DNA of 64,000 nucleotides from the NCBI GenBank assembly GCA_024734495.1, contig JALMQS010000828.1, positions 5,319,603 to 5,383,602 on the forward strand, written 5' to 3'. This document shows positions 9,241 to 61,424 of the stretch, one piece after another. Origin of the DNA: Forficula auricularia. Taxonomy: Eukaryota; Arthropoda; Insecta; Dermaptera; Forficulidae. The position numbers and the translations under genes are program-made. Position 1 is the first letter of the stretch. Every line of letters starts with the position of its first letter. The notes beneath the pieces are model-generated. The model searched no databases and was not told where the DNA came from. It worked only from the letters and a program-made list of their open reading frames with translations.

Positions 9241-9843
9241 GTCAAGTAAAAAAATAATTTTATATTAATACAGCAAATATATAATGAACAATTTCAAAAT
9301 TTAAATTTTGAATGACAACATTTTTAATGATATATTCTCATCAAGACACAATGCACATGAATATGAATTCGTTTTCAAATGAGGGAGAACATTTGAATTC
9401 AGATAGAGACTTCCATGAATTCAAGCAACTTGAAAACGATTAAAAAAGGTGTCGAATCGTTGTGCATTCCAATCAGAATATACCTTACGAAAAATGTATC
9501 ACTTTCATTCAAAACATGTTTAATGATATAAAATATAGATAATAGATTGAAACTCACATCGAAGAGAAGTCGGTCCATGCCATTACGAAGATTACACTAT
9601 GATACGACTTCCGCGGCTCATATGCTCACGGATCAGCTGATCGCTGAAAAATAAAATCAAGATTAATAACTCAAATTAATAATGAATATATATTTTCTGC
9701 CTTCAGAGCAGGTGGGTTGAATACCAAGCTCAAACTGAATATTATATAACTGAATGTAATGGAATGCAGCTCAGGGGTAGTGAGGAAAGAAAAATTAACA
9801 CATATCAAATAAGGTGTAATTTATTGGAATCCTTCCTCCTTTC

Positions 9844-9895
9844 CTTTCAAACCGACGTATTGGAGGATTTTCCCTCCTTCTTCAGGGTTTCAAAG
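9844..9895 (-). ncRNA. Hammerhead ribozyme motif A1, left arm (core mutated)
   Basis: CUGAAGA, stem II GGAGG/CCUCC and CGUC are present, and stem I pairs over about ten positions, but the GAAA box reads AATA. Probably inactive. Confidence 0.6.
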
Positions 9896-10066
9896 GGTCA
9901 ATGAAGGAAACAAATAAAATGTTTCCTTCTTCTCTCCACAGTAGTGTTCTAATTAAGAAAAGGAAGGAAAAAGAAATTGTTTTTCTATGCCTTTGCTAAA
10001 AAAGAAGAAAGTTTTGAACACTACTGTGGAGAGAAGGAAACATTTTATTTGTTTCATTCATTGACC

Positions 10067-10118
10067 CTTTGAAACCCTGAAGAAGGAGGGAAAATCCTCC
10101 GAAAAGTCGGTTTGAAAG
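10067..10118 (+). ncRNA. Hammerhead ribozyme motif A1, right arm
   Basis: CUGAAGA at 10077-10083, stem II GGAGG/CCUCC (10085-10100), GAAA at 10101, triplet GUC ending 10108. Stem I pairs CUUUGAAACC with GGUUUGAAAG, broken only by one G-G. The minimal stem III reads AAGU rather than ACGU. Confidence 0.75.
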
Positions 10119-10309
10119 GAAAGGAGGAAGGATTCCAATTAATTACACCTTATTTGATATGTGTTAATTTTTTCTTTCCACACTACCTCTGGGCTGCCTT
10201 CCATTACATTCAATTAAAATTTCTACCAGTCCGTCTCTCTCCAGAGGAAATATCGTTGTAAAAAAATATAATATAACATTTACATCAATTTACTTAATTG
10301 TTGTCTAGC

Positions 10310-10590
10310 ACTAGGCTAAAATTGAGATAGAGACTTGAAACTTGGGGGATTTTTTTTTATTTCGAACCCTATGAGCCTCTGTCAGCTTAAAAATTAGAAA
10401 ATAACACAAATAAGAAGCACACGAGGGGTGAACCGCGATTGGAATTAGGTGTACACCTCTTTGGAATTATATGGAATTATTTTGTAATTCATTAGATAAT
10501 CTATTGTCTTCTACTTTTAAATGGAAGTGGAAGTAGGTGTACACGATATTAGCTCGCGGTTCACCCCTCGGGAGCACACTATGATGTATG
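10310..10590 (+). repeat. Fragment of MITE M interrupted by MITE K
   Basis: 10310-10428 matches the inner end of element M at 15960-16065 (gagatagagacttgaaactt). It is interrupted by the K element at 10429-10568, so K inserted into M. Confidence 0.6.
10429..10568. mobile_element. MITE K copy 1
   Basis: Terminal inverted repeats GAGGGGTGAACCGCGA, with AGCACAC repeated on both sides. Other copies are at 18590-18726, 26760-26906 and 37519-37600. The duplications look like 8-10 bases. Superfamily undetermined. Confidence 0.8.
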
Positions 10591-10989
10591 GAATTCGCTC
10601 AATATTTTTTTATTTTTTGGATTTTCGACCTGATGAAATCTGACCCCTACACTAATTTGAACACATTCAAACTCACACATAAATATATAAATAAATAAAA
10701 AATAATAATCATAAAGAATATGTCTAAATGAGTCTTGTTAGCGAAGTAATAAAAAAACTGCATTTAAAAAATTAAATCAAAATAACGAAATCTCTTAAAA
10801 TATGAGGTTAGATTTTCAGGCAAATTGGTGGCGTCGAAGATCCCCTGATTTTGCATGAAAATGCACAAATATTGGAATATTTTGAAAATATAAATTGAAA
10901 ATATCATTATAAATATTTCTCTACATAACATAATAGATATGTATATTGTAACTCGAGTATAGTATCTTAAGATATCTGAAGTACTGCTA

Positions 10990-11665
10990 TCCAAGTATAG
11001 GTTCGCTTCACGAAATAGCCAACGCCATAGAATTTATAAGCCTCTAGATAGTGATGGAGATAGTTTTGAAAAATATGTCAATATTTTAAACTCACAATGG
11101 ATTATTAAATGTAGAGGAGAACTTTTATTCCTCAATAAATATAGATACGATGAAAGTAGCGAATTGTGCTCTCTTAGTAATCTGGGTCTCCCAGAGGATG
11201 TCTACCACTTTGTAGCGGTCTGTCCCGTTCTGAGAGAATTCAGAATCACTCACCTTAAAAAAAGAATTTAAAATTTTGATGAGCTTATAGGAATTCTGAG
11301 TGGGGTGGATTGGATTTTGTAGGGAGACCTCGAAATATAGATATACCCTAATTGACGAATTTAATTTTTAAATTAAATGTCAACTTATAATGTAAATAAT
11401 GTCTATATATAGAAATTTGTTTGGGAGAATATTGTATATAGTATATATATATGTATGTATAATTGGTGAAAAAAAGAAAAAAGAAAAAATAATTTATTAT
11501 AGAAGAATGTGAATATTCATGTATTTGTATTGTGTTCAAATCGGAATCTTTCCAGACGGTCCAAGGACCAAGGGAATAAATTTCTGAACAAATTATATAA
11601 AAATGTATATAAATGTAAAAAGGGTCTTCAAATAAAGACACTATTATTATTATTATTATATTGTA
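10990..11665 (+). pseudogene. LINE 3' end (C-terminal Cys/His region of reverse transcriptase ORF)
   Basis: An open stretch to TAA near 11270 reads LCSLSNLGLPEDVYHFVAVC PVLREFR, with the C-x2-C...H-x4-C zinc-knuckle pattern of insect LINE polyproteins (one cysteine replaced by Ser). Downstream are AATAAA and a (TAT)n tail ending about 11662. Truncated at its 5' end. Confidence 0.65.
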
Positions 11666-11879
11666 ACTCACCTGTATTTGGGATTATAAATATGATAAAT
11701 CGTCATTCAGATGCAAATATTCCATCAGATAATTTGAAGGAGTACCGAGCTACAGATGCTACTGAACTGGGAGCTGATTGGCGGGCGCTAAGGGCCCCTC
11801 GACAAGTTCAGACTCGAATCAGAAGCTTGTGACGTCATCACCTAATAGTGAATCAAATAATATAATATCAGAAATATAT

Positions 11880-13057: not shown

Positions 13058-13790
13058 TTTTTACTTTACCATACAGGATATGGTCAGGTATTGTAATCGT
13101 GCATGAAAAAAGTGTTTTTTTTCCTTCTTTTTTTCGAAATATCTCAAAAATGACTGAAAATATTTTGATTAAAAAAATTGAGCGAAACTATGGTATTTCG
13201 GTCTACAAAAAAGCGCTAATAAGTGAACATCGAAAAAATTATATTTTTCGAGATAATAATTGTTTTGTCAAAATGTCTGTTAGTATGTCTGGTTGTCTGG
13301 TTGTCTGTTAGTCTGTGCGTTACCAAATTTTTGTGGACGAGCTAGATCAAAAACTAGTGTAAATATCGAAACCAAATTTCACACGTACTTTTGGTCCATT
13401 AAGAGCTGATTAGATTTTGGTGCATAACGACCCAAAATTAAGGGGGGTGGAAGGGGTTAAAAATTAAAAATCTAGGCCATTTGAGCAAACTCGACCAAAT
13501 TTTGTATAGATGATCAGTGGACCCCAGAAGTCTAAAAATGCAAAAACTAACCACCCGAAATGGGGGGAGGGGGGTCAAAAAATGAAAATCTAGTCTCTTG
13601 TACCAAACTCAACCAAATTTTGTATACATAATCAGTGGGCCCCCAGGAGTCTAAAAATGCAAAAACCCCCTACATGAATATAAATAATTTTATTAAATTT
13701 TAAATATAAGTGAGGGGCCAGGTTGTAGGTAAAATCAAGTGGATGGCCTCATCAGAGGACGTCAGCTTATTTAAGAATAAAATTAATCTC
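13058..13790 (+). repeat. Dispersed repeat L, copy 2
   Basis: It matches the L copy at 8228 from accatacaggatatggtcagg to gacgtcagcttattt, with two to three internal units instead of six. Confidence 0.8.
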
Positions 13791-14350: not shown

Positions 14351-15412
14351 TAGGATGGCCCTTATTTTTGGTATTTTTATGCTCCCAGAGGCTCATATGG
14401 TTAGAAATAAATAAAAAAATATCCCCCAAGTGTCAAATCTCTATCTCAATTTAAACCTGGGCCGAACAGTTTCCCATCTAAATAACGTGGTGTTTTTGGC
14501 ATTGAACGATCAATTTTTTATTCCGGCCAAAGTAATGTTTCAAAAAATGTGAAACTATGTAAACTTTATCCTTATAATAGAGGCTATCCCTTGGAATTTT
14601 TGCAGATTTTTAGCTAATATAATTTTGGAGTATATACCTAAGATATAGCAGCAGGGCCCGATTTAGGATCTAGGCTGGACCTGTGGTGCGCTCCCTACAG
14701 GGGGAAATATTTTTTTTTTAAATTAACCTACAAAAACAGCATTTTCAGCAATTATCCAATTCAAAATTTGGTAACGCACAGACTAACCAACATTTTGACA
14801 AAACAGTTATTATCTCAAAAAATATAATTTTATCGATGTTCACTTATTAGGACTTTTTTGTAGACTGAAATGCCATGGTCTCGCACAATTCTTTTAATCA
14901 AAATAGTTTCAGCCATTTTTGAGATATTTAGAAAAAACGAAGCAAAAAAAACACTTTTTTCATCTACGATTACAATACATTACCATATGGTAAAGTTAAA
15001 ATAAATGTGCATGATTCTTTATTGAAACCTTGTTAAATATATTTTTTTTAAAAGTGACCCTTTGTGGTGCGGGCCCATAGGCTGCATGTGATTAAATCCG
15101 GCCCTGTATAGCATTAGTTTATCTAGCTGTAACTCCAAAATTATAATAGCTAAAAATCTCTAAAAATTCTGAAGGATAGCTTATATTATGAGTAAAGTCT
15201 ACATAGTTTCAAATTTTTTGAGCTATTACTTTGGCAAGAATAAAAAATTGATCGTTCAATGCCTAAAATAGGAAAATTATATCGCTATTCGGCAGAGTTT
15301 AAAATTGAGATATAGACTTGAAACTTGGGGGATATTATGTTTTATTTATATCAAGCCATGTAAGTCTCTGGAAGCATAAAAATTCGAAAATACCCAAAAT
15401 AAGCCCCACCCT
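14351..15412. mobile_element. Palindromic MITE M copy 1, carrying a hAT-type insertion
   Basis: Ends are TTAGGRTGGYCCTTATTTT on the left and the complement on the right. Arms are inverted repeats containing cattgaacgatcaatttttt. Its centre is split by the 14652-15106 insertion; without it the element is about 607 bases. Confidence 0.75.
14652..15106. mobile_element. hAT-type MITE nested in M
   Basis: Ends CAGGGCCCGATTTA and TAAATCCGGCCCTG. The flanking 8-base duplication is TATAGCAG / TATAGCAT (7 of 8). Its body is a minus-strand piece of repeat L (about 14755-15010). Confidence 0.8.
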
Positions 15413-15426
15413 AATATATGTACAAT

Positions 15427-16071
15427 TAGGGTGGTCCTTATTTTGGGGTTTTCGAATTTTTACGCTGACAGAAAATCATATGGTTCGAAATAAATAAAAA
15501 AAATATCCACCAAGTTTCAAGTCTCTACCTCAATGTTATAACCTGTGCCGCATAGCGATGAAAGTTTCCCATCTAAATAACATGGGGTTTTTGGCATTGA
15601 AAGATCAATTTTTTATTCCGGCCAAAGTAATATTTCAAAAAATTTAAAACTCTGTAGACTTTACCTTTATAATACTAGCTACCCTTCAGAGTTTTTTCAG
15701 ATTTTTTGTTTGTATAATTTTGGAGTTACAGCTAGAAAAACACTGCCATATCTTAGTGTTAGTAAGTTATAGACTCTAAAATTATATTAGCTACAAATCT
15801 GTAAAAATTCTGAAGGGTAGCTACTATTATAAGGATAAAGTCTACATAGTTTCAAATTTTTTGAACCATTGCTTTGGCCCGAATAAAAGATTGATCGTTC
15901 AATGCCAAAAACCCCATGTTATTTAGATGGGAAACTTACATCGCTTTGAGACACGGGTTAAAATTGAGATAGGGGGTTGAAACTTGGGGGATATTTTTTT
16001 ATTTATTTCGAACCATATGAGCTCCTGCGAGCGTAAAAATTCGAAACTACCCAAAATAAGGACCACCCTAA
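15427..16071. mobile_element. Palindromic MITE M copy 2
   Basis: It starts TTAGGGTGGTCCTTATTTTG and ends with the complement, CAAAATAAGGACCACCCTAA. Arms of about 300 bases flank a short centre near 15745. The adjoining 16073-16540 shows nothing that I can name. Confidence 0.8.
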
Positions 16072-16555
16072 TGTATATCGTTCTGCTGTTCAACATTTTT
16101 CTTAGCTTCAGTTCGTTGTTTTTTCTTTTTTTCTTTTACAAATGTGCTTTAAGGATTAGATTAATATTTTTAACAGATATTACTCAAATATAAGACTGAT
16201 CTAATCCTTGATTAATAAAAACTCTCTGGAGTGATACTAAAGGTGAAATTACATTCTAGAAAGCTAAATGAACTGATATTAATTAATGCCAAATTTTCAA
16301 AAAATGATTTTTTTTTCAATGCAAATTATTAACACTAGAATTTGATAGATGTTTGAATGGATTCATATTAGAAAGAGGAACTTTTATAGTCCGTCCATGC
16401 TTCTTGGCTCATGGTATCTCTCTTTTTTTTTCTTGGGGAGGGAGAAAGACTGGCGGTTGTGATATTCAGATAACGATTTAATGAGAGAGACAAATCAAAA
16501 TTTCCATATCGACATGAGACTCGATTCTTTGGATGGACTATATATAATTAAATAA

Positions 16556-18729: not shown

Positions 18730-19240
18730 AAAACCCATCGAGTCTCTCAGGAGCATGAAGTCAATTTTTCTGAGCCCTTTATTGACTTGATGCTCCCGAA
18801 GTCTTTGATTTGTTGTTTGTTCTCCTTTATCTATAGAATATTATCTCCTATTTACCTCCCTAGAGCCACCTTCGGAAACACCGAAACGTCACCATTGAAT
18901 TGAGTTGTTTAGCAATAAAAAAAACTATTTTATCTTAGTATTAAGTCAATCAAGAAAAAGTGTTTTTCTTTCAATTCTAAAAGTTTTAATGTAAAATTGT
19001 AAATATACTTTAAAAAATACCTATTAAAATCAAGCTTGATTACAATGTAAATAAATATATATATATATACTTTAATTAGAATAATGCAATGTTTTGATTT
19101 TTCTTAATGAATTTTAAATGTTTTTCTTTTCTTTATTCCTTAAACCCATCCCAATTAATGAATTCATGAAAGATGAAATAGGAAGATTCCATGTTATAGA
19201 GATTTCAATTATGATGTAAATTGAGTAGAATTTTACTTAG
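18730..19240. other. No recognised gene
   Basis: A stretch near 18860-18900 reads CUUCGGAAACACCGAAACGUC, which resembles the 3' half of a hammerhead without the CUGANGA part. The rest is plain AT-rich DNA. Confidence 0.35.
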
Positions 19241-19342
19241 ATAAAGTGGTGTAGGTTTTAGGTGAAACATGATATTAATTAATAAAGTAAAGGGTGTGTA
19301 GTGTCACAGTGAATGATATAAAACTCAAAAGAGGTTTATACA

Positions 19343-19386
19343 GACTCAATATATTTCGAATTATTAGTTCATCATCAGGAGTTTAC
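19343..19386 (-). ncRNA. Hammerhead ribozyme motif F1, left arm
   Basis: CUGAUGA, stem II GAA/UUC, GAAA, minimal AU-rich stem III, triplet AUU. Stem I pairs ACUC with GAGU. Confidence 0.65.
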
Positions 19387-19410
19387 AGGTTAAAACTATT
19401 TAAACCTTGT

Positions 19411-19458
19411 AAACTCCTGATGATGGACTAATAATCCGAAATATATAGTATTGAGTTT
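19411..19458 (+). ncRNA. Hammerhead ribozyme motif F1, right arm
   Basis: CUGAUGA at 19417-19423, stem II GGA/UCC (changed in both strands relative to the left arm's GAA/UUC), GAAA at 19438, triplet AUU. Stem I is AAACUC/GAGUUU, six pairs. Confidence 0.7.
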
Positions 19459-20395
19459 GTATAAACCTCTCTTTTGAGTTTTATTTCATTCACTGTGAAA
19501 CTACACACCCTTTACTTTATTAATTAATTGAGTAGAATTGTTCAATTTTTTTCTAATTTAATCAAGAAGTTGTGCACATTATTTATAAATCCTATCCTAT
19601 GCTTCGCAAAAATCAAACACTAAAGTTGGATTAATTAAACAGGCAAAAGAAATTGATGCCCATATAAATATAAATATATTTCAAATTATAAGCATTAGTC
19701 TCCTATCGACTCACTCACCTCTGATAAACTGATTAAAAAAATTATTTTATAATGAGTTAATCCTTAGGTCGTGGAATTGGGGTAAATTATACTAAGTAGA
19801 GTAAGAATAAAAATCTTGGGGGTTGGTGAAGGATCAATAAACATATTAATTAAATTGCCTTAAAAAACTTTATTATTTAATAAAGGGAAAGAGAGTCTTG
19901 ATCAACTGGTGTGTTCACCACACAACTTTCACATTTTCAAGGCTCTGCTACTTTCCGAAGACGAGATATTAACGATTAAAAATATTTAATTTACCACACT
20001 CCTAATTTACCCCCTCTTCCTTTATTAAAAATTTGACACAACTAATAGCTCATGACAATTGATAAATATACTAAATTTTTAAAAAATGGTTGAGCCATTT
20101 TTGAGAAAAACAAAAAAAACGAAAAATCTTTAATGTAAATGTCCACTTCCGGTTTTCCGATTTCAACCAAAAGCTTGCTGTACGCCTAGCCTATATCGAG
20201 CTTAAGTTTCGAATTTCGTAGCTCTGAGACTTATGCACAGGGGGCCGAACATACTATATATATTTGTCTAGATTATTAGTTGAATAAAAGATTTCACTGT
20301 CGATGGTAACAGAATTGTTTTTATTTTAGGTTAAAAATAAAATAAAATGAGAGAGTCTTCTGTTTTTTAAATAAAATAATTTTTAATTATTTCTA

Positions 20396-20436
20396 GAGAG
20401 TATAGTTTCAAAGGCATTGCCTTCATCATCAGTCTA
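20396..20436 (-). ncRNA. Hammerhead-like motif, family H relative
   Basis: CUGAUGA, stem II GAAGGC/GCCUUU with loop AAU, then GAAAC. No good cleavage triplet or stem I, so probably degenerate. No second arm seen. Confidence 0.5.
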
Positions 20437-20439
20437 TCA

Positions 20440-22150
20440 CAAATATTTCAAATTAGTTACAAATTAAGATTTATACATTGAAAATTTTGAAAAATATATA
20501 ATGTCTTTTTCTTCATGTTTCCTCTTGGGAGATTAGAATATAACTGTCTAGATTAATTTGCCGCAACGCTGACGTAATGCTGCCGAGAGAGAGTGCCATC
20601 TGTATATTTGCGGCAAATTTGAAATATAACCGTAATTTGGACTCAAATTTCGAAATGAAAGACTCAAATTGATTTTAAATTAAGAAACATTAAATATATT
20701 GATAATTATTACCCCCCCCCCCCTTCACCACTCAAAAATTAAATATTCAATTCGCTTTTCTTTGCGCACAGAAAAAGAAATCAATCACATCTTATTTGAT
20801 TCAATTTTTTTAAAAAATCTAAATTTTGTTATTCTTATTTTTTGATTTTTACAAAATTAAACGACTTAAGACACGCATGCCCATATGAGTTTCTCATTGC
20901 AATACTGGATGGAGCAGCCTGTCATACAAACAACACCTGATCTCTTTAAATATTTGGAGCCTTATATCGATTATCGATCCCAAATTTTAAAAAAATGATA
21001 TAATATATTTCTCCTCCTCACACGATACCACTTATTTAAATAAATCTATTTCTACACAAAAAATATCACAATGCTGTAGATTATAGAAGAAAAAATACTT
21101 CCAGATTCATATCTAGAGCCTCATTTCTGTAGCTGTGTCAGGACGAAAATGAGGCGAAACTTTTTAAGAAACTATGTATTTTCGGGAGTTTACAGGTATT
21201 CATTTGGAGTGTAGTTTTTTAAGAGGAATAAAAATTTTGGACCGAGACGCCGCCCGCCAGGGCACCAGCCCGATATACATAAGCACTGACAAATGGATTT
21301 TTTTACCCATTTTTGACCTCTGGGGATCACAATTTCCGGTTTTATCCGCTAAATCCGGTTTCCAACTATTAAGGGCATCGATTCCTTCCACCTAGAAATT
21401 ACAAAATCAAATTAACTTTTTTCATCTCTGAGATACAAGCTCTCAAAGAGTCAGGAATAAGTCAGGGCATCGCAATACTTCCCCATTATATTCTATGGAA
21501 TATAAATGTGAAAGTAAAAATCAGAAATTTCTGAAGACATTACATATACGAATTACTCTGAAAGTTTAAATTTTGATGTACATTCAGTAGAATTAAAAAT
21601 TTTATTTGATTAATACTCAAAAAATAAATTTCCGAAAACAAAGAGCCGAATATATTAACTTAATCAGTGGTTAAAAATAAAAAAAGTAAACTTAATAAAT
21701 AAATAGATATCTTGACTATCTTGGAGCTATACTGATCTAAAGGCAGAAAGAATCATTAAAATCGGTTCATAAACAAAGAAGTTATGCCTGAACAAACATA
21801 ACAAAAAAGGTCCAATACTAATGAAAAAAAACCGAACCAATCGGAAACTATACTGAACCCAATGCAAAAAAATCATCAAAATCGGTACACAATTGGCGAA
21901 GATATCAGGTAACATAGATACAAAAAAAAAATTCAGTCGAATTGAGAACCTCCTCCTTTTTTGAAGTCGGTTAAAAACCAAACTTTATTTTTAGTAGTGT
22001 TCTCCCAGAAATTAGGATTGCAACTTTAAGGTAGTCCATGGCATCGGCGAGACTGGTCTCTTGCTTACACATATAGGATAAAATTGAATAAAAGATATTT
22101 CAATACTACTACTACTAATACTACTACTACTAAAACTTGTGAATAATGTG
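20440..22150. other. Intergenic stretch, no recognised gene
   Basis: Only short unconvincing ORFs. A GC-rich patch near 21240-21275 (gccgcccgccagggcacc) resembles part of 17755-17800. Confidence 0.4.
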
Positions 22151-24042: not shown

Positions 24043-24195
24043 GAGTTCGGTGTTGGTTCTAGGTGAAACATTTTTTTTTTTTACAATATATAATCAGTTT
24101 TCTTAGACTCCTGATGATGGGCTAACCCCCGAAATATATCGAATTCAAAACTCAATTTTGTTTTATTTCTTTTTTGTGAAACCTACCGAGTATCT
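24043..24195 (+). mobile_element. Family F element, single copy
   Basis: It has the leader motif (gttcggtgttggttctaggt), a hammerhead motif and an end matching gtgaaacctacc...gtatcttactcaag, which also ends the element at 59540. Confidence 0.7.
24106..24146 (+). ncRNA. Hammerhead ribozyme motif F2
   Basis: CUGAUGA at 24111-24117, stem II GGG/CCC with loop CUAA, GAAA at 24131, triplet AUC. Stem I is short and imperfect. Confidence 0.65.
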
Positions 24196-26178: not shown

Positions 26179-26179
26179 T

Positions 26180-27550: not shown

Positions 27551-27826
27551 GTATTAACATTTTATCAGTCTGATTACATTTTTCATTGTCAATTTATCCT
27601 TGAAAAGTTACTTAACATTTACTTTTTGAGGTTAGAAATATCATTTTTCCCATGAAAAGAATATATAATTAGAAAAAACAAATATTTGAATAATAAAAAT
27701 CTTATCAAAATCACTATCATAATTTGGGTAAATTATTTATTATTTTGATTATTAATGTCCATCGATTAAATTAATAAAGTTGTAGGGAAATAAAGACAAT
27801 AGCTTATGCAAATAATTTTTATTATT

Positions 27827-27866
27827 TGCCAACGTTTCTTCAACTTTGTTGACTTCCTCAGGGCTC
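27827..27866 (-). ncRNA. Hammerhead ribozyme motif C1, left arm
   Basis: CUGAGGA, stem II GUCAAC/GUUGAA with one changed closing pair, GAAAC, stem III ACGU, triplet GUU, stem I GCC/GGC. Confidence 0.65.
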
Positions 27867-28052
27867 ATATAAATTAACTCCTTTGCATATTTGTCAATTT
27901 ATTAATATTCCTTCTTAGCAAACATATCAGGCTAGTCATCACACAGATTGAATAGGAAACTATTTTCAATCTGTGTGATGACTGGCCTTATGTGTTTGCT
28001 AAGAATGAATATTGATAAAATGACAAATATGCAAAGAAGTTAATTTATATGA

Positions 28053-28090
28053 GCCCTGAGGAAGTCAATAAAGTTGAAGAAACGTTGGCA
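28053..28090 (+). ncRNA. Hammerhead ribozyme motif C1, right arm
   Basis: CUGAGGA at 28056-28062, stem II around UCAA/UUGA, GAAACGUU. Like the left arm it has an A in place of the closing C. Confidence 0.6.
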
Positions 28091-28269
28091 AAGAATACAA
28101 ATTATTTGCATAAGCTATTGTCCTTAATTCCCTACAACTACTTATTAATTTAATCGATGAACATAAATAATCAAAATAATATAATTAATTGTTTAATTAA
28201 TGAATCAAGGCCTACGCTGCGAAAAATGAACGATGAGAGGATTAAAAAAAAGAAATTCCAAAGGTATTA

Positions 28270-28590: not shown

Positions 28591-28631
28591 TAATTATTCT
28601 ATGTAGCTTATGCAAATAATTTTAATTTTTT

Positions 28632-28670
28632 ACCAACGTTTCGTCAACTTTGTTGACTTCCTCAGGACTC
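28632..28670 (-). ncRNA. Hammerhead ribozyme motif C2, left arm
   Basis: CUGAGGA, perfect stem II GUCAAC/GUUGAC, GAAAC, stem III ACGU, triplet GUU. Core intact. Confidence 0.72.
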
Positions 28671-28896
28671 AAACAAATTAACTTCATTGCATATTTATCA
28701 TTTTATTAATATTCTTAGCAAACACATAAAGCCAGTCATCGAACAGATTGAAAATACTTTCCTTTAAATCTTAAAATAAATCATATATAAAAGATATTTT
28801 GAGATTTAAATAGGAAAGTATTGTGTGATGACTGGCCTTATGTGTTTGCTAAGAATATTAATAAAATGATAAATATGCAAAGAAGTTAATTTGTTT

Positions 28897-28936
28897 GAGC
28901 CCTGAGGAAGTCAACAAACTTGACGAAACGTTGGCA
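28897..28936 (+). ncRNA. Hammerhead ribozyme motif C2, right arm
   Basis: CUGAGGA, stem II GUCAA/UUGAC, GAAAC, ACGU, GUU, stem I GCC/GGC. Core intact. Confidence 0.72.
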
Positions 28937-29032
28937 AAAATTAAAAATTATTTGCATAAGCTATTGTCCTTATTTCCCTACAACAACTTTATTAATTATT
29001 TATTATATAAATTATAAATATTAGCAAAATTA

Positions 29033-29510
29033 AAAATAAGATAGAATGGGGTCAAAATCCATATTCCAAATCTTAAAAAGATCTAGAAAGCTGAATCACT
29101 GAGATAAAGCCATATATAAAAGGATTTGTAAATTAATGTTAACGAGAAATTTATATTTTCTAATTGAAAGTAATGGAAGGAAGACCAGGGGTTGTGAGGA
29201 AAGAAAAAAATTAACACATATCCAAATAAGGTGTAATTTATTGAATTCTTTCCTCCTTTCCTTTCAAACTGACGTTTCAGAGGATTCTTCCCTCCTTCTT
29301 CAGGGTTTCAAGGGGTCAATGAAGGAAACAAATAAAATGCTTCCTTCCTCTCTCCACAGCAGTGTTTAAAAGTTTTAAAAATAAGATAGAATGGGTTCAA
29401 AATCCATATTCCAAATCTTAAAAAGATCTAGATAGCTGAATCACTGAGATAAAGCCATACGTATAAAAGGATTTGTAAATTAATGGCAACGATAAATTTA
29501 TATTTTCTAT
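29033..29510 (+). repeat. ~130-base direct repeats around a family A insertion
   Basis: 29033-29163 and 29374-29510 are near-identical (for example tccatattccaaatcttaaa in both). Between them is a single-arm family A element. This is either a tandem duplication or an unusually long target-site duplication. Confidence 0.8.
29261..29313 (-). ncRNA. Hammerhead ribozyme motif A2 (single copy)
   Basis: CUGAAGA, stem II GGAGG/CCUCU (one G-U), GAAAC, ACGU, triplet GUC. Stem I pairs well after one C-A mismatch. The best-kept family A core in the window. Confidence 0.75.
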
Positions 29511-29844
29511 TTTATTTAAATTAGGGGTGTCCACAGGGGAGCGGGGTTGAAAATTGTTGCAAAATTACCATTACCTATATGTTAAAAATAAAAATGGTCA
29601 ACGTTATAACTTAAACAAAAGGCAATTAAAAACTATTATTATCATTTCCGTCCATAATTTGTATTAATTTGAAAGTTTATAATAATTAGTAGAGATTGTG
29701 GTGTTGGTGCAAGGTGAAACATCTTTAATAAAGATAAGAGTAAATAAATATTATATTTAATATGGATTTACTATGAGTTAAGGATACTAGGTCACTTATT
29801 TCACATTAAAATTAAAAAATTAAAAGATATAAATTTTTTTCTTT

Positions 29845-29888
29845 TTCAATATATATATTTCGGGCTGTCAACCCATCTTCAGGAAGTA
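29845..29888 (-). ncRNA. Hammerhead ribozyme motif F3, left arm
   Basis: CUGAAGA, stem II GGG/CCC with a GGGUUGACAGCCC hairpin, GAAA, (AU)n stem III, triplet AUU. Confidence 0.68.
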
Positions 29889-29918
29889 CAGAAAGTAACA
29901 TGATCAGTTACTTTCTGT

Positions 29919-29961
29919 ACTTCCTGAAGATGGGTTGACAGCCCGAAATATATATATTGAA
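29919..29961 (+). ncRNA. Hammerhead ribozyme motif F3, right arm
   Basis: Same core as the left arm: CUGAAGA 29924-29930, stem II 29932-29944, GAAA 29945. Stem I is about three pairs. Confidence 0.68.
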
Positions 29962-30070
29962 AAAAAAAAAATTATATCTTTTAATTTTTAATGTGAAATA
30001 AGTGACCTAGTATCCTTAACTCATAGTAAATCCATATTAAATATAATATTTATTTACTCTTATCTTTTAA

Positions 30071-30241
30071 GTTTATAATAGAAAAATAAGGACAAGTTTT
30101 TATGTGTGACTTTTATATCAGGGCTTCAAATAGTCATGCCTATTTGAAGCCCTGAAGAAAGTCGGCAAAGTCGACGAAACGTTGGCTGATAAATAAAAAA
30201 GTCACGCATAAAAAACTTGTCCTTATTTTCCTATTATAAAC
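30071..30241. mobile_element. Family B hammerhead element 1
   Basis: A short palindrome; arms share ataaggacaagtttttatgt. The left arm lacks the ribozyme segment. Confidence 0.75.
30148..30187 (+). ncRNA. Hammerhead ribozyme motif B1
   Basis: CUGAAGA, stem II GUCG/CGAC, GAAAC, ACGU, triplet GUU, stem I AGCC/GGCU. Confidence 0.72.
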
Positions 30242-30359
30242 TTTCAACAAAAAGCAATTAAAAACCTCTTCTAATTCTTTAGAAGTGAATGAAATATAAT
30301 ATACGAAGGGGGGTTACTTTTCATAAAACTGGGGGGGGGCACCCTTGTCTAAATTATAC

Positions 30360-46022: not shown

Positions 46023-46029
46023 TATAACT

Positions 46030-47080: not shown

Positions 47081-47330
47081 CTGTTAACAAATGTACAAAA
47101 CAATAAATAATTTTACAAACGCTGATAAAGGAAAGATAGCTGTCCAAAAATTTATAAATTAGGAAGGAGAGGAATTCAGTCAGTAAAGGAAGCCTCTGTC
47201 GAATAAAAACTCCAAATTATGTATAGAAAACAGTTTCTGCTTTAAATAAATAATGCCATCTTCAGGTTCTAATAAGCTGTAATGACCTTAAAATGTAAGA
47301 ATATCAATTCAAAACAAAATAAATTATTTT

Positions 47331-48218
47331 GAAAGTTTATAACGGGAAAATAAGGACAAGTTTTTATGTGTGACTTTTTTATTTATCAGCCAACGTTTCG
47401 TCGACTTTGCCGACTTCTTCAGGGCTTCTACAATTATAAGAACATTATTAATATCAAGTTACAAAATTACAATTACAATTCCAGAACAAACATGTATTAA
47501 TAGTTTACCCACCAAATAGTCATGCCACACATTCGTCTAAATTTTCTTGTAATTTAATTACCGAACGTTGAAAATTTGTTAGGATTCTATCTGCCTGTCT
47601 CTTGAAAGGATGACTGCCCAGTTGCAGAGGAAAAATGTTTTTAAGTTATAATTTAAAAAACATTTTTGAAGTGAATACTTCTATAGGCTCGCCAGGTACA
47701 CATTTTTCCCGAGGAGTGAATCGAGAAAAAACCGACCGAACGAACGAACGAAAAAGCGACCGTAACGAAATCGAGGCAGATCATCTCTCTCTCTCTCTCC
47801 CCTCCACTGCGCTCTCCTCGCCGCGCAAGGCATCACATCTCTCTCTCTCCCCCCTCCACTACAAATTCCACAACACCTATTTCAGTATTCACTTCTATCA
47901 GATGTCCCCGAGACAGCCAAATATTTTTTCCTCTGCAACTGGGCAGTCATCCTTTCAAGGCAGATAGAATCCTAACAAATTTTCAACGTTCGGTAATTAA
48001 ACTACAAGAAAATTTAGATGAATGTGTGGCATGACTATTTGGTGGGTAAACTATTAATACATGTTTGTTCTGGAATTGTAATTGTACTTTTGTAACTTGA
48101 TATTAATAATGTTCTTATAATTGTAGAAGCCCTGAAGAAGTCGTAAAGTCACGACGTTGGCTGATAAATAAAAAGTCACACATAAAAACGTGTCCTTATT
48201 TTTCTGTTATAAATTTTC
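47331..48218. mobile_element. Family B hammerhead element 2, long inverted dimer
   Basis: ~300-base arms around a unique centre (47640-47925) with (CT)n and gaacgaacgaac runs. A ribozyme motif is in the left arm and its damaged partner (48124-48162, core deleted) in the right. Confidence 0.85.
47388..47426 (-). ncRNA. Hammerhead ribozyme motif B2
   Basis: CUGAAGA, stem II GUCG/CGAC, GAAAC, ACGU, GUU, stem I AGCC/GGCU. Core intact. Confidence 0.72.
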
Positions 48219-48363
48219 AAATTAATACAAATTATGGACGGAAATTATAATAATAAAATAAAATAATAATAATTGGTTCTTACAATATTTGCAAACTCAA
48301 TACATTGAGTGCAGGCAGAGTTGTTATGTATTATTAAACACAAAATTATAAAAAACATATAAA

Positions 48364-50690: not shown

Positions 50691-50801
50691 TTAGCACCCT
50701 CTATAAATATTTTTTCGATTAGTTCCTTTTATTTTTAAATTAATTAAATATTTATTCAATTTTTAAAAATCGACTAAAATAAATATAGATCAAAAACTTA
50801 C

Positions 50802-50992: not shown

Positions 50993-51070
50993 CTTAAAAT
51001 AAAAATGGATTTAATATCGAAGGGAATTAAATTAATTTCAATTAATCAAAATTAAAGAAAAAATATTTAC

Positions 51071-51205
51071 CATTGCGGAGATATCAACAATCCGTACATC
51101 TCTCGAACATTTAATTGATAAATCTAAGAAATTGGAATAAATTTGATTACATAATTCTTTACTTGGAGCTAAAATAAGAGCTTTAGTTTGTTGTTCTGAG
51201 GAAAT
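51071..51205 (-). CDS. DDX56: DDX56 exon 3: motif Ia
   Basis: This exon has 45 codons in phase 0. It contains LILAPSKELCNQIY (motif Ia, normally PTxEL, here PSKEL) and CSRDVRIVDISAM, matching the DDX56 segment CARDVRVANVSA in position. RNA contact is the known role of motif Ia. Confidence 0.93.
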
Positions 51206-51295
51206 CTGAAAAAGAAAAATTGAAAATGATGTATTAAACTGCAGAGCCATTTTATCTATAATTAAAATTAAATAAGAGGAAAAAAATTTTCTATT

Positions 51296-51998: not shown

Positions 51999-52013
51999 TG
52001 CTTCTGTTCAAAC

Positions 52014-52255
52014 ACTGCAGGAAGAGAGAAGAAGGAAGCATCTTGTTTCCTTCCTTCATTGACCCTTTGAAGTAAGTGAATTGTTATTTCTTTTGATAAT
52101 CTGGCTATATGTTGTGTATATGTATTTATAAATGTATTATTATGATTGAAGTGAATGAGGAACAACCCCGTTTATTTATAATTATGTTATATTGATTTAT
52201 AGACTCTGAAGGAGGAAAGAATCCTCCGAAACGTTGGTTTTTAAAGGAAAGAGAA
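52014..52255 (+). mobile_element. Family A hammerhead remnant split by an intron-like insert
   Basis: Family A sequence to tgaccctttgaa (52071) resumes at actctgaaggagg (52203). The 131 bases between start GTAAGT and end TTATAG. The ribozyme core has lost two bases (CUGAAGG), so it is probably inactive. Confidence 0.65.
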
Positions 52256-52274
52256 AAAAGATGACAGTAATCTG

Positions 52275-53632: not shown

Positions 53633-53797
53633 TAGTACATTCAAGGATCGCGAGTTAGATCAAGTTTGTCTAATCCAAAAAAATCTTCAAGATCAATAAC
53701 CTGACCAGCAAAGTCTCAACATAAAAATCAAGAACATGAATTACAAAATGTAGAACATGTAATAAAAATAGAATTATTATATCTGATTGTGATTTAC

Positions 53798-53959
53798 CTT
53801 TTTTGAATTAATGATTTTTTGAATGACAGGAATAGCGAAAGCTCCGGTTTTTCCTGATCCTGTTCTCGCTTTACACATAACATCTTTCCCTTCGAGTAAT
53901 AAAGGAATAGCCTTTTCTTGTATAAGGGTAGGTTCACACCAACCTAATTTTGCTATAGC
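53798..53959 (-). CDS. DDX56: DDX56 exon 2: Q motif and Walker A
   Basis: This exon has 54 codons in phase 0 at both ends. It holds [20 protein letters not shown], the Q motif that senses adenine, and ARTGSGKT (motif I), which binds ATP phosphates. The donor is GTAAAT and the acceptor tttttcag. Confidence 0.95.
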
Positions 53960-54039
53960 CTGAAAAATACACATTTTATTTAATTATTTATTCAAGATAT
54001 ACTTTAACAATTTACAATAAAATAAATGAAGGGTTTGTA

Positions 54040-54110: not shown

Positions 54111-54654
54111 CATGAAATTGTATAATTTGATGGAATAATGAGATTGAAGATGACCTCTCATAAGGTCAAATATTTAATTATATAGAATAAAATGTGTACA
54201 AACTCATTACATTTATCTCTGAACCTTTGGCGCAAGCACAGTATAAATTTATATGAAGTTACAATTCTTATTTTTGACTGGGCTGCCTTCCATCAATCAC
54301 TTATGGGTACCGCAATGTGTGTATAACCAACTTGGTCAACTTGAAATATTATAATAAGTACCTGGCCACCGAGCGATGCTCAGTAACTTTTGCTTCAGTT
54401 AAAAGCTATATATTAATCCCCGAACCACTTCACCCCTCCACCCCACATCCACCTACACCCCCTCCCGACCACTTCCTCCCCCTCACCCGCACCCCTCCAC
54501 CCCCGCCCCCTCCACCCAGTTTTTGCATTTCAAGCCTTGTAGTGAGCCACAGATTATGTGTATATAAATAAATACCGTATAATAATTTGTTTTAATTAAG
54601 TAAATAACAATTTTTGAGTTCATTATTAAAAAAACAATTAATTTTTTTTGCAAC

Positions 54655-54770
54655 GAAATTTTCTCTGGAGAGAGACGGACTGGTAGAACCTTATTTGATC
54701 TGGTTACACCTTATTTGATATGTGTTAATTTTTCTTTCCTGGGCTGCCTTCCATTACATTCAATTAAAAC
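54655..54770 (+). repeat. Family A end fragment
   Basis: gagagacggactggtagaa followed by the outer end ending gggctgccttccattacatt. No core. Confidence 0.65.
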
Positions 54771-55329: not shown

Positions 55330-56143
55330 TATGTTTTATTAAAACTCATGTATCTTATCATTTTATTACAATCAACCTCCGATTGAACTATATTAGATGA
55401 AGGAGAAGGTATCAGCCAAGTTGGATTCAATAAAACAACCTGAATAAAATGTTTCGGCCTGAATTTATTTGGCCATCTTCAGTTGATTGGGCTACCAAAT
55501 TTACAAATAGTTAACATCAATTTCCACGAAATTTTCTCTGGAGAGAGACGGACTGGTAGAAATTTTAATTACATGTAATGGAAGGCAGCCCAAAGGTAGT
55601 GAGAAAGAAAAAATTGACACATATCTAAATAAGGTGTAATTTAATTAATTCCTTCCTACTTTCCTTTGAAACCGACGTTTCTATCCTTCCTTCTTCAGGA
55701 TTTCAAGGGGTCAATGAAGGAAACAAATAAAATGCTTCCTTCCTCTCTCCACAGCAAGGGTTTAAAAGGAAAAGAAGAAGGGAAGAATCCTCCGAAACTG
55801 ATGTTGAAATGAAAGGAGGAAGGATTCCAATAAATTACACCTTATTTGATATGTGTTAATTTTTTCTTTCTTCACTAACCCTGAGCTGCCTTCCATTACT
55901 TTCAATTAAAAGTTCTACCAGTCCGTCTCTTCCCAGAAAATTTTGTCGAAATTAATGATAACTATTTGTAAATTTTGTAGCCCAATTAACATGAAGATGG
56001 CCAAATTCAGGCTCGAAACGTTTTATTCAGGGTGTTTTATTGAATCCAACTTGGCTGATACCTCCTCCTTTATCTAATACAGTTCAATTAGAGGTTTATT
56101 CTAATAAAATGATAAGATACATGTGTTTTAATAAAACATTTTT
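55330..56143. mobile_element. Nested family D + family A palindrome
   Basis: Outer arms are family D (ccaagttggattcaataaaa and complement). The inner 55533-55942 is a family A palindrome exactly at the centre of symmetry. Both A motifs here are damaged (stem II deleted at 55664-55707; CUGANGA lost near 55775). Confidence 0.8.
55443..55495 (-). ncRNA. Hammerhead ribozyme motif D1
   Basis: CUGAAGA, stem II GGCC/GGCC, GAAAC, then AUUUUAUU. The right-arm partner (55986-56030, plus) has AUGAAGA in place of CUGAAGA. Confidence 0.55.
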
Positions 56144-56217
56144 TTGTAAACATATATATAATTAACAGGAATAGCAGGAATTGGACAAAAATTAAAAACA
56201 GAGTTTTTATTGAATGT

Positions 56218-56257
56218 GCCAGACGTTTCGTCGATTAATTTCGACTTCCTCAGTGGC
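56218..56257 (-). ncRNA. Hammerhead ribozyme motif G, left arm
   Basis: CUGAGGA, stem II GUCGA/UCGAC, GAAAC, stem III ACGU, triplet GUC, stem I GCCA/UGGC. Every expected element is present. Confidence 0.8.
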
Positions 56258-56337
56258 TCATTATCACTATCACTCTTTGTCAAAGACAATTCCACGTCGC
56301 GTAGTGGAATTGTCTTTTGACAAAGATGATAGAATGA

Positions 56338-56377
56338 GCCACTGAGGAAGTCGAAATTAACCGACGAAACATCTGGC
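56338..56377 (+). ncRNA. Hammerhead ribozyme motif G, right arm
   Basis: As the left arm but stem II has one changed pair (GUCGA/CCGAC) and the triplet is AUC. Confidence 0.75.
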
Positions 56378-56478
56378 CCATTCAATAAAAACTCTGTTTT
56401 TAATTTTTTGTCCAATTCCGTATTTCTGTTAATTAAATGCTTATTATGGATACGAGTGATTTACCATATATATAATAA

Positions 56479-56929
56479 TTTGAAAGTTTATATTGGGAAA
56501 ATAAGGACAAGTTTTTTATGTGTGACTTTTTTATTTATCCACCAACGTTTCGTCGACTTTGCCGACTTCTTCAGGGCTTCAAATAGTCATGTCACACATT
56601 CGTCTAAATTTTCTTATTCTTTTCGTTACCATTGAAGGCCATCAGAATACAATTTTCAAAAAATATTTGGCACATTCACAAAAAAACACAATTTTTCTCT
56701 TTATAATAACAATTTCATTAATACAACAGAACAGAAATCACATATATACAAAATAAGGCAACCCTGTTTTTTTAAACTAGAATAGAATATTTTTTCTTCT
56801 CCGTTTTATCCCTACATACAGAAATCTCAACTTCGAAATTCTCAACGGCAAAGTCGACGAAACGTTGGTGGATAAATAAAAAAGTCACACATAAAAAACT
56901 TGTCCTATTTTCCCAATATAAACTTTCAA
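56479..56929. mobile_element. Family B hammerhead element 3
   Basis: Arms share ggacaagttttttatgtgtg. The right arm keeps only the 3' half of the motif (56846-56872). Confidence 0.8.
56541..56577 (-). ncRNA. Hammerhead ribozyme motif B3
   Basis: CUGAAGA, stem II GUCG/CGAC, GAAAC, ACGU, GUU, stem I GCC/GGU. Confidence 0.7.
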
Positions 56930-57255
56930 ATTATAAATTAAATTATGGACGGAAATGATAATACATATATATAATCTTCATTCTTTGCCTTTTATCCAAC
57001 TATAGCTACAATGAATCTAGAAATAAAAGTTGCTACCACAAATTTGTAGTATTTAATTTTTTAAAAACTTAGAAGGCTCCTATCTTAGGTTATCAGTTGC
57101 TGTAACATAATTAAATGTCAAGATTTTGTTAAATGTTGCATTTAGTTCTATACATAAAAGGGAATAAGCTTCTAATATAAAATCAATTAATTATGTAAAT
57201 ATATATTAAAAAATTAAATTAAAAATATAATTAATAAATAAATTAAATTATAAAC

Positions 57256-59504: not shown

Positions 59505-60420
59505 AATTTTTTTTTTTAATGATAATGATGAGAAAAGGAATAACTTTTAAGGAGTTCGGTGTTGGTTCTAGGTGAAACATTTTAATATAATAATAAAACT
59601 TGAGTAAGATACGAGGTAGGTTTCGTGTTGGTGGTGCAGGTTGTGAAACCTACCTCGTATCTTACTCAAGTTTTATTATTATATGAGAAAAGGAGTTAAA
59701 CCAAAAAGGTGCATCCCCTAAAGGCCTGGGTTGGCCCCTCGATCGTGAAAAGAAGAAGGCAAGGAATTTTATAGGATGGGTAGGGGTCGAAGGTATCTGT
59801 GGATGCGGGTCTTGAAGAGCTGAAGGTTATAAGTCGCGGGGAAGACGGTGGCTGGGAGCGAGTTCCAGTCTCTGGAGGTCATAGGGATAAAAGAGTTGGC
59901 GAAAGCGCTTGTTCGATTTTTATCCAATTTGACAGCGAAGGGGTGTTGAGGGTTTGAAAACAGCGTGTTTTCTCTTAAAGAGGGCTTTAGGGGGGATAAT
60001 TGAGTGAGTTAGTTAGGGCCGGGTCTCCTATTAGTTTAATTGCTCGCTTCTGAATCGCATCCAGTGTGACAAGAGAATGCTTGGAGGCCCCTCTCCACAG
60101 ATGAGAGCCATATTCGAGACAGGAACGAATTTGAGCCTTATACAGTGTAAGACGTTGACTGGGAGTATAATAGCGTCTAGACCTAAATAGGAGACCAAGC
60201 TTGCGCGCTGCAGCTCTAGCAGTGGTTGAGATATGGTCATTCCAAGAAAGGTCAGACCCTAGAGTTACGGCTAGCATTGAAATTTTATCCCTGAATTCCA
60301 ATGAGTTTGAATCGAATGATATGTTTGGGAGGTTTCTGTCGACGCGCCTAGAAATAAGACAACACTGAGTTTTCACTGCATTGAAGTTAACTAAGTTTTG
60401 GGATCCCCAGTTTTTAAGTT
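59505..60420 (-). pseudogene. LINE C-terminal RT fragment
   Basis: The minus strand reads SDLSWNDHISTTARAAARKL, LYKAQIRSCLEYGSHLWRGA and LDAIQKRAIKLIGDPALT, then after a deletion a NTLFSNPQHPFAVKLDKNRT block, all typical of jockey-like insect LINEs. It ends in an A-tract (plus T-run near 59510) and is 5' truncated, inserted in PLE sequence. Confidence 0.8.
59540..59682 (+). mobile_element. Family F element as a hairpin, with 12-base target duplication
   Basis: Leader motif, then a ~38-base inverted pair (acttgagtaagatacgaggt and complement) around gtgttggtggtgcaggtt. It is flanked by ATGAGAAAAGGA at 59528-59539 and 59683-59694, inside the LINE. Confidence 0.85.
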
Positions 60421-60424
60421 AAAT

Positions 60425-60700
60425 TATTTATTTTCAATAACTCTCTTACTTTCTTTAGATTCTCTTCTGAAAATCTTCGTGACTTGATTTAATAGCTCAA
60501 TGTAGTAAACCTAGCACAACACTAGATTTTTGTGTTGTCGGGTGGCTAGAAATATTCTGTCTGAATTCCCCTGTTTCATGTACCAGTTTGTCCTCATCAC
60601 CATTTTGCCTTCTCTGCATATAATTGGAAAGACAATTCATCCATCTTCATTTTCCATAGTAAATTGTATTTTCTTATGGAAACAATTAAAATATTCCATT
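60425..60700 (-). pseudogene. Penelope-like reverse transcriptase fragment 1
   Basis: The minus strand gives TNWYMKQ, then in another frame ISSHPTTQKSSVVLGLLH and ENLKKVRELLK, the end of the PLE RT core. One stop and frameshifts. Confidence 0.7.
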
Positions 60701-60886
60701 TATTATTACAGTATAACAAAATTGTAGTAAACTGATAAGGACTCATTATTAAATATTGATGAAGCACTATAATACTTGAGGTATATGAGTCAAACCATTG
60801 ACTAGGATGTATATCGGTTGGCACAGGGTACTTCTCCCTTAAGAAATGAAAGAAATTTTTCTGTTTTTGGTTCTTATATATTTTCC

Positions 60887-60931
60887 AGGAGTAGACGTTT
60901 CGACAAGTATGCCTTGTCATCATCAGTCTAT
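60887..60931 (-). ncRNA. Hammerhead ribozyme motif H, left arm
   Basis: CUGAUGA, stem II GACAAG/CUUGUC (six perfect pairs), GAAAC, ACGU, triplet GUC. Stem I is weak. Confidence 0.68.
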
Positions 60932-61124
60932 AAAGTAAATACAAAACATAGGAACTTGAATATAAATTTAAGTCATGAAGAGAAACCATGCAAGGTCATA
61001 TTAATTGAACATTAGAAACAATAACAGTAAAATTAATATATTTACTGTTAATGTTCAATTAATATGACCTTGCATGGTTTCTTCATGACAAGTTTATATT
61101 CAAGTTCCTTGTTTTGTATTTACT

Positions 61125-61170
61125 TTATAGACTGATCGATGACAAGGCATACTTGTCGAAACGTCCACTC
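61125..61170 (+). ncRNA. Hammerhead motif H, right arm (insertion in core)
   Basis: Identical stem II and GAAACGUC, but one extra C in CUGAU(C)GA. Confidence 0.6.
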
Positions 61171-61424
61171 ACATTGGAAAAATAACAGCGAACTTCAAAA
61201 ACAGTAAAATTCTTTCATTTCTTATGCAAGAAGTACCCTGTGCCAGCCGACTTAACTACATCCTAGTCAATGGCTTGACTCCATATACCTCAGACTATTA
61301 TAGGTTTCATCAATATAAAATATTCCAGTAAACCATTCATCACCTTTGGTATACAAACGTCAACATCGAATGTTTTAATTGTTCAATTGTTCCTATTTTC
61401 CTGATTTGTCAAATCTAATTATCA

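Follow-up and report, generated by a model that had tools for sequence, protein, structure and literature searches.

In Adineta vaga, Penelope is described with inverted pseudo-long terminal repeats (pLTRs), and a target-site duplication (TSD) of 8–10 bp; one of the inverted pLTRs may also have a 31-bp tail at its 3′ end (PMC3846280). For a Penelope-like element (PLE) of Anolis, Frangieh and colleagues describe a protein that cleaves and extends both DNA strands and prefers AT-rich DNA (PMC11167929). Their account includes two adjacent internal start sites in an AC-rich stem-loop 111–118 nt into the open reading frame (ORF), and the "tail" is the sequence between the two start sites (PMC11167929). 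The route of head-to-head PLE insertion has been left open in both papers. Here we analyzed both strands of a 64,000-nt window of Forficula auricularia DNA (contig JALMQS010000828.1), in which a series of short, apparently dead and mostly head-to-head insertions carry hammerhead ribozyme motifs. These insertions are probably non-autonomous PLE derivatives that were reduced to the pLTR and moved in trans. We favor this reading because the ends, the tails and an AC-rich motif fit it. New here are further PLE-type insertions with an informative anatomy. Short pairs without an ORF and with clear TSDs make the insertion route countable, and genome-wide counting could address whether there is always one tail, where the arms start and how the centre is formed. 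A search of titles and abstracts in the open-licence PMC literature returned no report of short hammerhead palindromes without an ORF.

Layout and ends of the insertions

We selected 18 hammerhead cores by hand as the most complete. Nine others (A55L, 47R, 52206, 55L, 55R, 60R, 56.5R, 20432 and 34052) were kept outside this set. Insertion names are those of Table 1, with L and R for left and right arms. When the window was compared with itself by BLAST, 17 of the 18 cores fell in head-to-head inverted pairs with outward-reading ribozymes. Pairs were seen directly, as palindromes or paired arms, at A1, 19k, 27k, 28k, 29k, 47k, 55k, 56k and 60k. One partner is decayed or truncated at 30k, 56.5k and 24k and in the A-family pair inside 55k. 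The only selected core outside any pair is A-solo; of the weaker ones, 52k, 20k and 34k also stand alone. The unit is ~125 to >300 nt long and present as two head-to-head copies in most insertions. Its 5′ ends vary, and the hammerhead in each intact arm lies ~65–160 nt before the arm end.

Seven insertions are flanked by TSDs of 11–19 bp, six of which are exact (19k, 29k, 56k, 56.5k, 59.5k and 60k; 30k is not). Random flanks had an exact match of at least 12 bp in 0.88% of 4000 pairs. Such a match was found at 4 of 10 palindromes examined; 56k and 56.5k are not independent. In all seven TSD-bearing insertions, exactly one arm has an extension before the TSD, which has a probability of 0.008 (calculated by hand) if the arms choose independently and evenly. 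The gap between the tail-less arm and the TSD is +1 to -7 nt by BLAST arm ends (by hand for 30k). A1, whose imperfect TSD matches at 12 of 14 positions, fits the one-extension pattern. No recognisable extension was found at 27k and 28k.

The extensions are common to 30k, 47k and 56.5k, to A1 and the A copy of 55k, and to 19k, 24k, 29k and 59.5k. In the first group the extension is on the left in 30k and on the right in 47k and 56.5k. Because extensions recur within a family, on the left in some insertions and on the right in others, we regard them as template sequence and not flank. The last group shares the AC-rich motif ATGTTTCACCT(3 nt)ACC(A/T)ACACC, and the tail sequence TTGTCCTTA is common to the 27k/28k and 30k/47k/56.5k families. 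The first-pass annotation of this DNA had described many unrelated families of hammerhead elements. With these shared tails and extensions, "unrelated" is too strong.

Inverted pLTR copies, a short TSD and an optional tail of 30–40 bp on one copy make up the anatomy of a PLE, and all were found here. Minimal hammerheads, too, are published for PLEs. Adineta vaga Penelope, as described, likewise has head-to-head pLTRs with junction palindromes, short TSDs and a one-copy tail, a preference for AT-rich targets, and a few unrelated sequences inserted, with TSDs, between solo pLTRs (PMC3846280). The present locus differs from that description in four ways: no insertion was seen to have an ORF for reverse transcriptase or endonuclease, several short families lie within 64 kb, the TSDs are 11–19 bp, and the tail is on exactly one side in seven of seven cases. 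The Anolis Poseidon PLE also has a hammerhead with stems I and II beside the start codon; in contrast to the insertions here, it is an autonomous element (PMC11167929). In 19k and 29k the AC-rich motif lies ~100 and 155 nt past an AUG-like codon, compared with 111–118 nt into the ORF for the Anolis start region.

In the route that we propose, a PLE reverse transcriptase/endonuclease supplied in trans would nick AT-rich DNA. Synthesis of cDNA would start internally on the unit RNA, where two start sites would be separated by tens of nucleotides, so that one arm would begin at the distal site and have the extension and the other at the proximal site and have none. The two cDNAs would meet at their 5′-template ends to give a mirror-image insertion. 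The hammerhead would belong to the unit RNA and, its own stem III being nearly absent, may depend on a dimer or on help from a protein. In the finished insertion each ribozyme would be trapped within an extended RNA hairpin and would decay like its surroundings.

A variant that is compatible with PLE origin is self-priming, in which a copy is made after the first cDNA, or an antisense template, has folded back on itself. Arkhipova and colleagues favored it for head-to-head PLE palindromes while leaving the matter open (PMC3846280), and the centres of 27k and 29k are hairpin-like. However, 47k, 56.5k and A1 have long unpaired centres and hence unequal arms, and the ends of the tail-less arms of 30k and 56.5k coincide to within ~4 nt, as a defined start site would produce. 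Since these arms end nearly alike, we prefer priming on both strands and consider self-priming the less probable of the two.

The inverted-repeat layout would also be expected of palindromic DNA transposons, that is, foldback elements or miniature inverted-repeat transposable elements (MITEs). Their terminal inverted repeats would hold a hammerhead by chance, a transposase would move them, and they would be passed on in palindromic form. Transposase_1 fragments (Pfam) are present in the window. However, the TSD length varies (11, 12, 14 and 19 bp), the ends are asymmetric in all seven TSD-bearing insertions, the 5′ ends vary, and same-insertion arms cluster in two of three testable families (see below). 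Neither the fixed TSD length nor the symmetric ends of a MITE or foldback element were found. With variable TSDs and asymmetric ends, this origin is very unlikely.

Metazoan retrozymes, as described in PMC7229834 and PMC7761336, resemble the present insertions in being small, non-autonomous and equipped with type I hammerheads; they differ in having tandem direct copies and a better stem III. If the insertions were retrozymes, a monomer set free by tandem hammerheads would form a circle and serve as template for reverse transcription. Their small size, the lack of an ORF and the occurrence of type I hammerheads in animals agree with this, and retrozyme-like repeats are reported from insects (PMC7229834). 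However, we saw no head-to-tail array of hammerhead monomers, and no tandem direct repeats bounded by hammerheads, in the repeat comparisons, one of which listed 20 of 54 direct-repeat families. The copies are in inverted orientation. The closest neighbours in the same direction, 27k and 28k, are each a complete pair, ~850 nt from one another. Descriptions of invertebrate retrozymes give them a more stable stem III than the minimal one seen here. We consider retrozymes a very improbable origin. The first-pass annotation had linked the elements to PLEs and retrozymes. The inverted pairs, short TSDs, one-sided tail and 5′ truncation give good support to the PLE half of this link, and the retrozyme half is not supported, as no head-to-tail array was seen in these comparisons.

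Several observations weigh against the PLE reading. No convincing TSD was found at 27k, 28k, 47k and 55k, and that of A1 is imperfect. The A copy inside 55k has an extension on both sides, and A-solo is a single copy between 135-bp repeats. In the analysis of ends, the tail-less arms of 19k, 56k, 56.5k and 60k were trimmed to the TSD. Fourteen other inverted repeats whose ends were inspected had no core by the descriptor or by our covariance model below E 0.68 (see below); one of these, 59.5k, is a further insertion. Pfam analysis of 20 selected ORFs of 169 gave no GIY-YIG domain, and the RVT_1 fragments in this selection (three ORFs over the cut-off and one below it) are LINE-like by eye only. 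No ORF with a PLE reverse transcriptase plus GIY-YIG was found among these 20. Because this coding feature is missing from the ORFs scanned, the insertions are filed as non-autonomous only. That the elements are mostly non-autonomous, as first proposed, is well supported by the insertion anatomy.

Hammerhead motifs

Hammerheads with the type I order and with stem III missing or reduced were reportedly found dispersed in animal genomes by the thousands by Lunse et al. in 2017. The motifs in this window have the same order and a reduced stem III, together with an extra A or U after A9. We searched with a descriptor made of CTGANGA, stem II, GAAA, stem III, H17 and stem I, with minima of 3, 2 and 3 pairs for stems II, III and I, respectively, and with zero or one extra nucleotide allowed after A9. 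It matched 10 times in the 64 kb on both strands, compared with a mean of 0.1 and a maximum of 1 in 100 first-order shuffles. This excess shows that the hammerhead-like motifs are real. Nine of the 10 matches require the extra nucleotide. The strict descriptor, without it, matched only at 51193-51239, probably by chance.

The Rfam hammerhead models had no match in the whole window, either at the gathering score or at E up to 1, and none at E up to 10 on two sub-regions. The scans returned chiefly microRNA-precursor matches, which we read as a reflection of the long hairpins. A lack of significant covariance-model hits was the outcome named in the first-pass annotation as telling against it, and with Rfam's models this was the outcome. 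Animal hammerheads of this form can escape the Rfam models. Patterns of the commonest core, written as DNA, were absent from the viral and prokaryote contigs searched, which has little bearing on insects.

We built our own covariance model from 9 training sequences of three families. It recovered five held-out A-family copies (10073, 55670, 52202, 9850 and 29267) at E values of 1.3e-5 to 2.8e-3, and also, at 1.3e-5, a decayed core (48128) whose partner was in the training set. The truncated core 56844 and the 60k core 60890 were found at E 0.05 and 0.054, respectively, and all remaining matches had E of at least 0.68. The model missed the 55482 core and the 19k/24k/29k type; in the latter, stem III is AUAUAU-like and not ACGU. 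Two related stretches, 28428-28470 (CTGAATAAGTCTTACAAATTGAAG..) and 39653-39695 (CTGAAGAAGTCTTACAAATTGAAG..; E 0.68 by our model), resemble a very degenerate hammerhead.

The 18 selected cores have the type I order, with the CUGANGA core, GAAA, A15.1-U16.1 and H17. GAA is intact in 17 of them, and H17 is U in 11 and C in 7. Stem II is paired in all 18 at position 2 (TA 9, GC 7, AT 2) and at position 3 (CG 10, AT 5, GC 3), and positions 1-3 of stem I are paired in 17, 17 and 16 of the cores. Both sides of stems I and II change between families. In an alignment of nine sequences from three families, 87.8% of cells were paired compared with 75.7% in shuffles, and the covariation score was 0.394 compared with 0.194; none of 500 shuffles was as high in either measure. 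The four double-change pairs (86/500) and the number of pair types (274/500) in this alignment did not exceed the shuffles. The 34k/45k pair, stem I of 24k, stem I of 60k and 55k were classed as degenerate and not counted as support. The first-pass annotation had given the order CUGANGA, hairpin, GAAA, short stem III and NUH, with a list of stem II pairings. The order and every one of the pairings are present in the sequence. The extra nucleotide after A9, the inverted-pair layout and the TSDs were absent from that account.

The extra core nucleotide

In none of the 18 cores does stem II directly follow A9. All have one extra nucleotide between A9 and stem II, which is A in 11, AA in one (30152) and U in six. 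The extra A of the chrysanthemum chlorotic mottle viroid (CChMVd) was reportedly placed between A9 and G10.1 by de la Pena and Flores in 2001. A U at the extra position is reported to speed cleavage, and C or G to be harmful. According to a figure legend, it is the plus-strand hammerhead of CChMVd that carries the extra A in its core. The core likewise has one extra nucleotide; CChMVd is a viroid with A only, compared with A or U here. Insertions of one or two nucleotides beside CUGAnGA are known in hammerhead alignments (PMC10085705).

In cores of the U type, A9-U10-G10.1 reads ATG (19R, 19L, 24k, 29R, 29L, 20k, 60L and 55L), as it also does in the weaker cores 34052 and 47265. Cores of the A-type families read AAG, except for 30152 (AAA) and the mutated 52206 (GAG). 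Position 10 is never C or G in about eight families, which in AT-rich DNA is weak evidence alone (~0.05, by hand). We infer that the AUG at U10, which lies roughly where the Anolis PLE frame is described as beginning, may be the PLE start codon. Most AUG-initiated readings stop within a few codons. That of 60L is open for 107 codons, and the reading frame of its partner arm is not open. A protein search with the N-terminal reading of 60k gave no candidate homologue, which is a further point against the PLE reading.

A broader proposal joins four points: the extra nucleotide is no accident, AUG serves as both core and start codon, the A-type families with AAG are parasites, and the single tail reflects coordinated, unequal subunits. 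We think this combination unlikely to hold as a whole. If it were true, a ribosome starting at the core AUG would unfold the ribozyme, and cleavage would strip the start codon from the message, giving a built-in choice between protein making and RNA processing. The A-type families would have lost the codon and retained the processing signal alone. If every insertion has exactly one tail, the two cDNAs would never share a start site. An overlap of start codon and core in some families would give this ribozyme, described so far as being of unknown function, a role open to testing.

Origin of the pairs and fate of the ribozymes

If palindromes were copied as palindromes, left arms should resemble left arms. 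In the quartet 47L, 47R, 56.5L and 56.5R, five informative sites join same-insertion arms and 0/0 support the other arrangements. An insert of ~85 nt is present in both 47L and 47R and absent from 30R and 56.5L. With the same-insertion arrangement given first, the informative sites were 4/0/1 for the arms of 27k and 28k, 7/1/1 for A1L and A1R versus A-solo and A55L, and 5/0/1 for 56.5L and 56.5R versus 30R and 47L. Because same-insertion arms share variants, in two of three testable families, each pair was probably made at insertion from one source RNA. Three comparisons do not support this: the A1 versus A55 quartet (0/1/2 sites), 47L/47R versus 30R/56.5L (1/1/1), and the similarity of 28L, which is 0.874 to 28R and 0.884 to 27R. 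Gene conversion between arms could mimic the same-insertion clustering.

RNA folding was predicted for 15 of the 18 cores, with a stem taken as formed when the mean probability of two of its pairs was 0.6 or more. Stems I and II were both formed in 8 of 15 cores when the local stretch was folded, in 6 of 15 with the single arm and in 0 of 15 with the whole palindrome, where no stem value exceeded 0.03. A finished insertion is thus predicted to hide its ribozymes in an RNA hairpin. Between the arms of seven insertions, the ribozyme differed at 26/278 positions and the rest at 129/1098 (p 0.29), with no excess conservation of the ribozyme. Since ribozyme and flanks diverge alike, there is no sign of selection in finished insertions. 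Selection on the ribozyme, if any, would have acted in source copies.

Both results would also agree with a hammerhead that is inherited sequence without catalysis, in an RNA that never cleaves. This is compatible with PLE origin. The motif is buried in the predicted whole-palindrome transcript of all 15 cores folded and is not extra-conserved between arms, the Rfam models score nothing, and cleavage by the Anolis PLE ribozyme is described as needing protein and as dispensable for insertion in vitro (PMC11167929). However, the paired changes in stems I and II and the shared core residues, seen in hand-picked cores, suggest past selection for the fold in source lineages. We consider a lack of catalysis rather unlikely.

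Catalogue of the insertions

The insertions and single cores are collected in Table 1.

Table 1. Insertions and single hammerhead cores in the 64,000-nt window (positions of the window; strand in brackets after each core).
Name	Position	Strand	Hammerheads and arms	Extension	TSD or flanks
A1	9747..10262		inverted pair; 9850-9889 (-; GAAA mutated), 10073-10112 (+), outward	right only, ~10217-10262	imperfect, GAATATTATATAAC / AAATATAATATAAC, 12/14, by hand
19k	19233..19525		inverted pair; 19344-19382 (-), 19413-19456 (+)	left only, 19233-19273, 41 nt	exact 14 bp, AATTGAGTAGAATT, 19219-19232 / 19526-19539
20k	20390..20440	-	degenerate U10 core, C3 at 20432; single copy; weak stem I		
24k	24048..24144	+	U10 hammerhead 24107-24144 (+); left partner apparently 5′-truncated to its extension	motif of left partner read on - from 24071	no TSD established
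27k	27731..28186		inverted pair; 27827-27865 (-), 28052-28090 (+)		no convincing TSD
28k (family of 27k)	28604..28997		28631-28669 (-), 28898-28936 (+); left arm shortened		no convincing TSD
A-solo	29163..29374	-	A-family single non-inverted copy; 29267-29307 (-)		direct repeats ~135 bp, 29030-29162 / 29375-29509, 95%
30k (interrupted by 29k)	29634..30246		30148-30187 (+); left arm without hammerhead (lost)	left only, 29634-29669 (by hand), 36 nt	ACAAAA(G/A)GCAATTAAAAAC, 29615-29633 / 30247-30265, 18/19
29k (within tail of 30k)	29685..30068		29844-29886 (-), 29920-29962 (+)	left only, 29685-29729, 45 nt	exact 12 bp, AAGTTTATAATA, 29673-29684 / 30069-30080
47k	47323..48260		47388-47426 (-), decayed partner 48128-48162 (+); arms 47323-47635, 47925-48226; 289-nt unpaired centre	right only	TSD unclear
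52k	52202..52239	+	A-family hammerhead, mutated core; single		
55k	55331..56139		809-bp palindrome; degenerate cores 55482 (-), ~55988 (+); concentric A-family pair inside, decayed core 55670-55702 (-)	A extension on both sides of inner pair	no convincing TSD
56k	56163..56464		56218-56257 (-), 56338-56377 (+)	right only, 56439-56464, 26 nt	exact 12 bp, CATATATATAAT, 56151-56162 / 56465-56476
56.5k	56477..56963		56540-56578 (-); right arm 5′-truncated inside stem II (56844-56866 +)	right only, 56935-56963, 29 nt	exact 12 bp, 56465-56476 / 56964-56975
59.5k	59540..59682		inverted pair without hammerhead, read as 5′-truncated past it	left only, 59540-59584, 45 nt	exact 12 bp, ATGAGAAAAGGA, 59528-59539 / 59683-59694
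60k	60699..61316		U10 core 60890-60930 (-), mutated partner near 61130 (+); weak stem I	left only, 60699-60746, 48 nt	exact 11 bp, AAAATATTCCA, 60688-60698 / 61317-61327; shorter alternative, 7 bp, AGTAAAC

Three copies of CATATATATAAT between 56151 and 56975 bracket the adjacent 56k and 56.5k, with the middle copy common to both, as if one insertion had entered the target duplication of the other. A further, apparently truncated A-family tail with its extension lies at 54650-54769 on the minus strand.

Other contents of the window

The GC content along the window is 28 to 35%. CDK7, at 62992-63987 on the minus strand, is the sole ORF of at least 150 aa with a start codon in the window and is encoded by a single unbroken reading frame of 331 codons. 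Its best named relatives by identity are insect proteins (Anabrus simplex, 77%; Periplaneta, 76%), and two further database sequences are 98% and 96% identical. Third by score is a 555-aa protein of the nematode Meloidogyne incognita, which aligns in two stretches at 59% and 65%. The minus strand also holds pieces of a DEAD-box helicase gene, spread over ~11 kb (42991-54000) with repeats in between, as judged by the Pfam matches Helicase_C (42991-43251) and DEAD (53777-53983).

Fragments of reverse transcriptase (RVT_1) and of Transposase_1, which we take to be of the mariner type, were found with Pfam at 30946-31396, 43812-45290, 34845-35099 and 52472-52786. A tandem repeat of ~118-124 bp (GTATACATAATCAGTGGGACCCCAGAAGTC...) occurs on both strands with flanks in common (8461-9139, 13453-13666, 42217-42544 and 41492-41717), and looks like the internal array of some repeated element. 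Long palindromes in which no hammerhead was detected lie at 2067-2891, 15107-16072, 22404-23822 and 48362-48572, and these four have no direct repeat >5 bp at their BLAST ends. The window as a whole is rich in foldbacks of several kinds.

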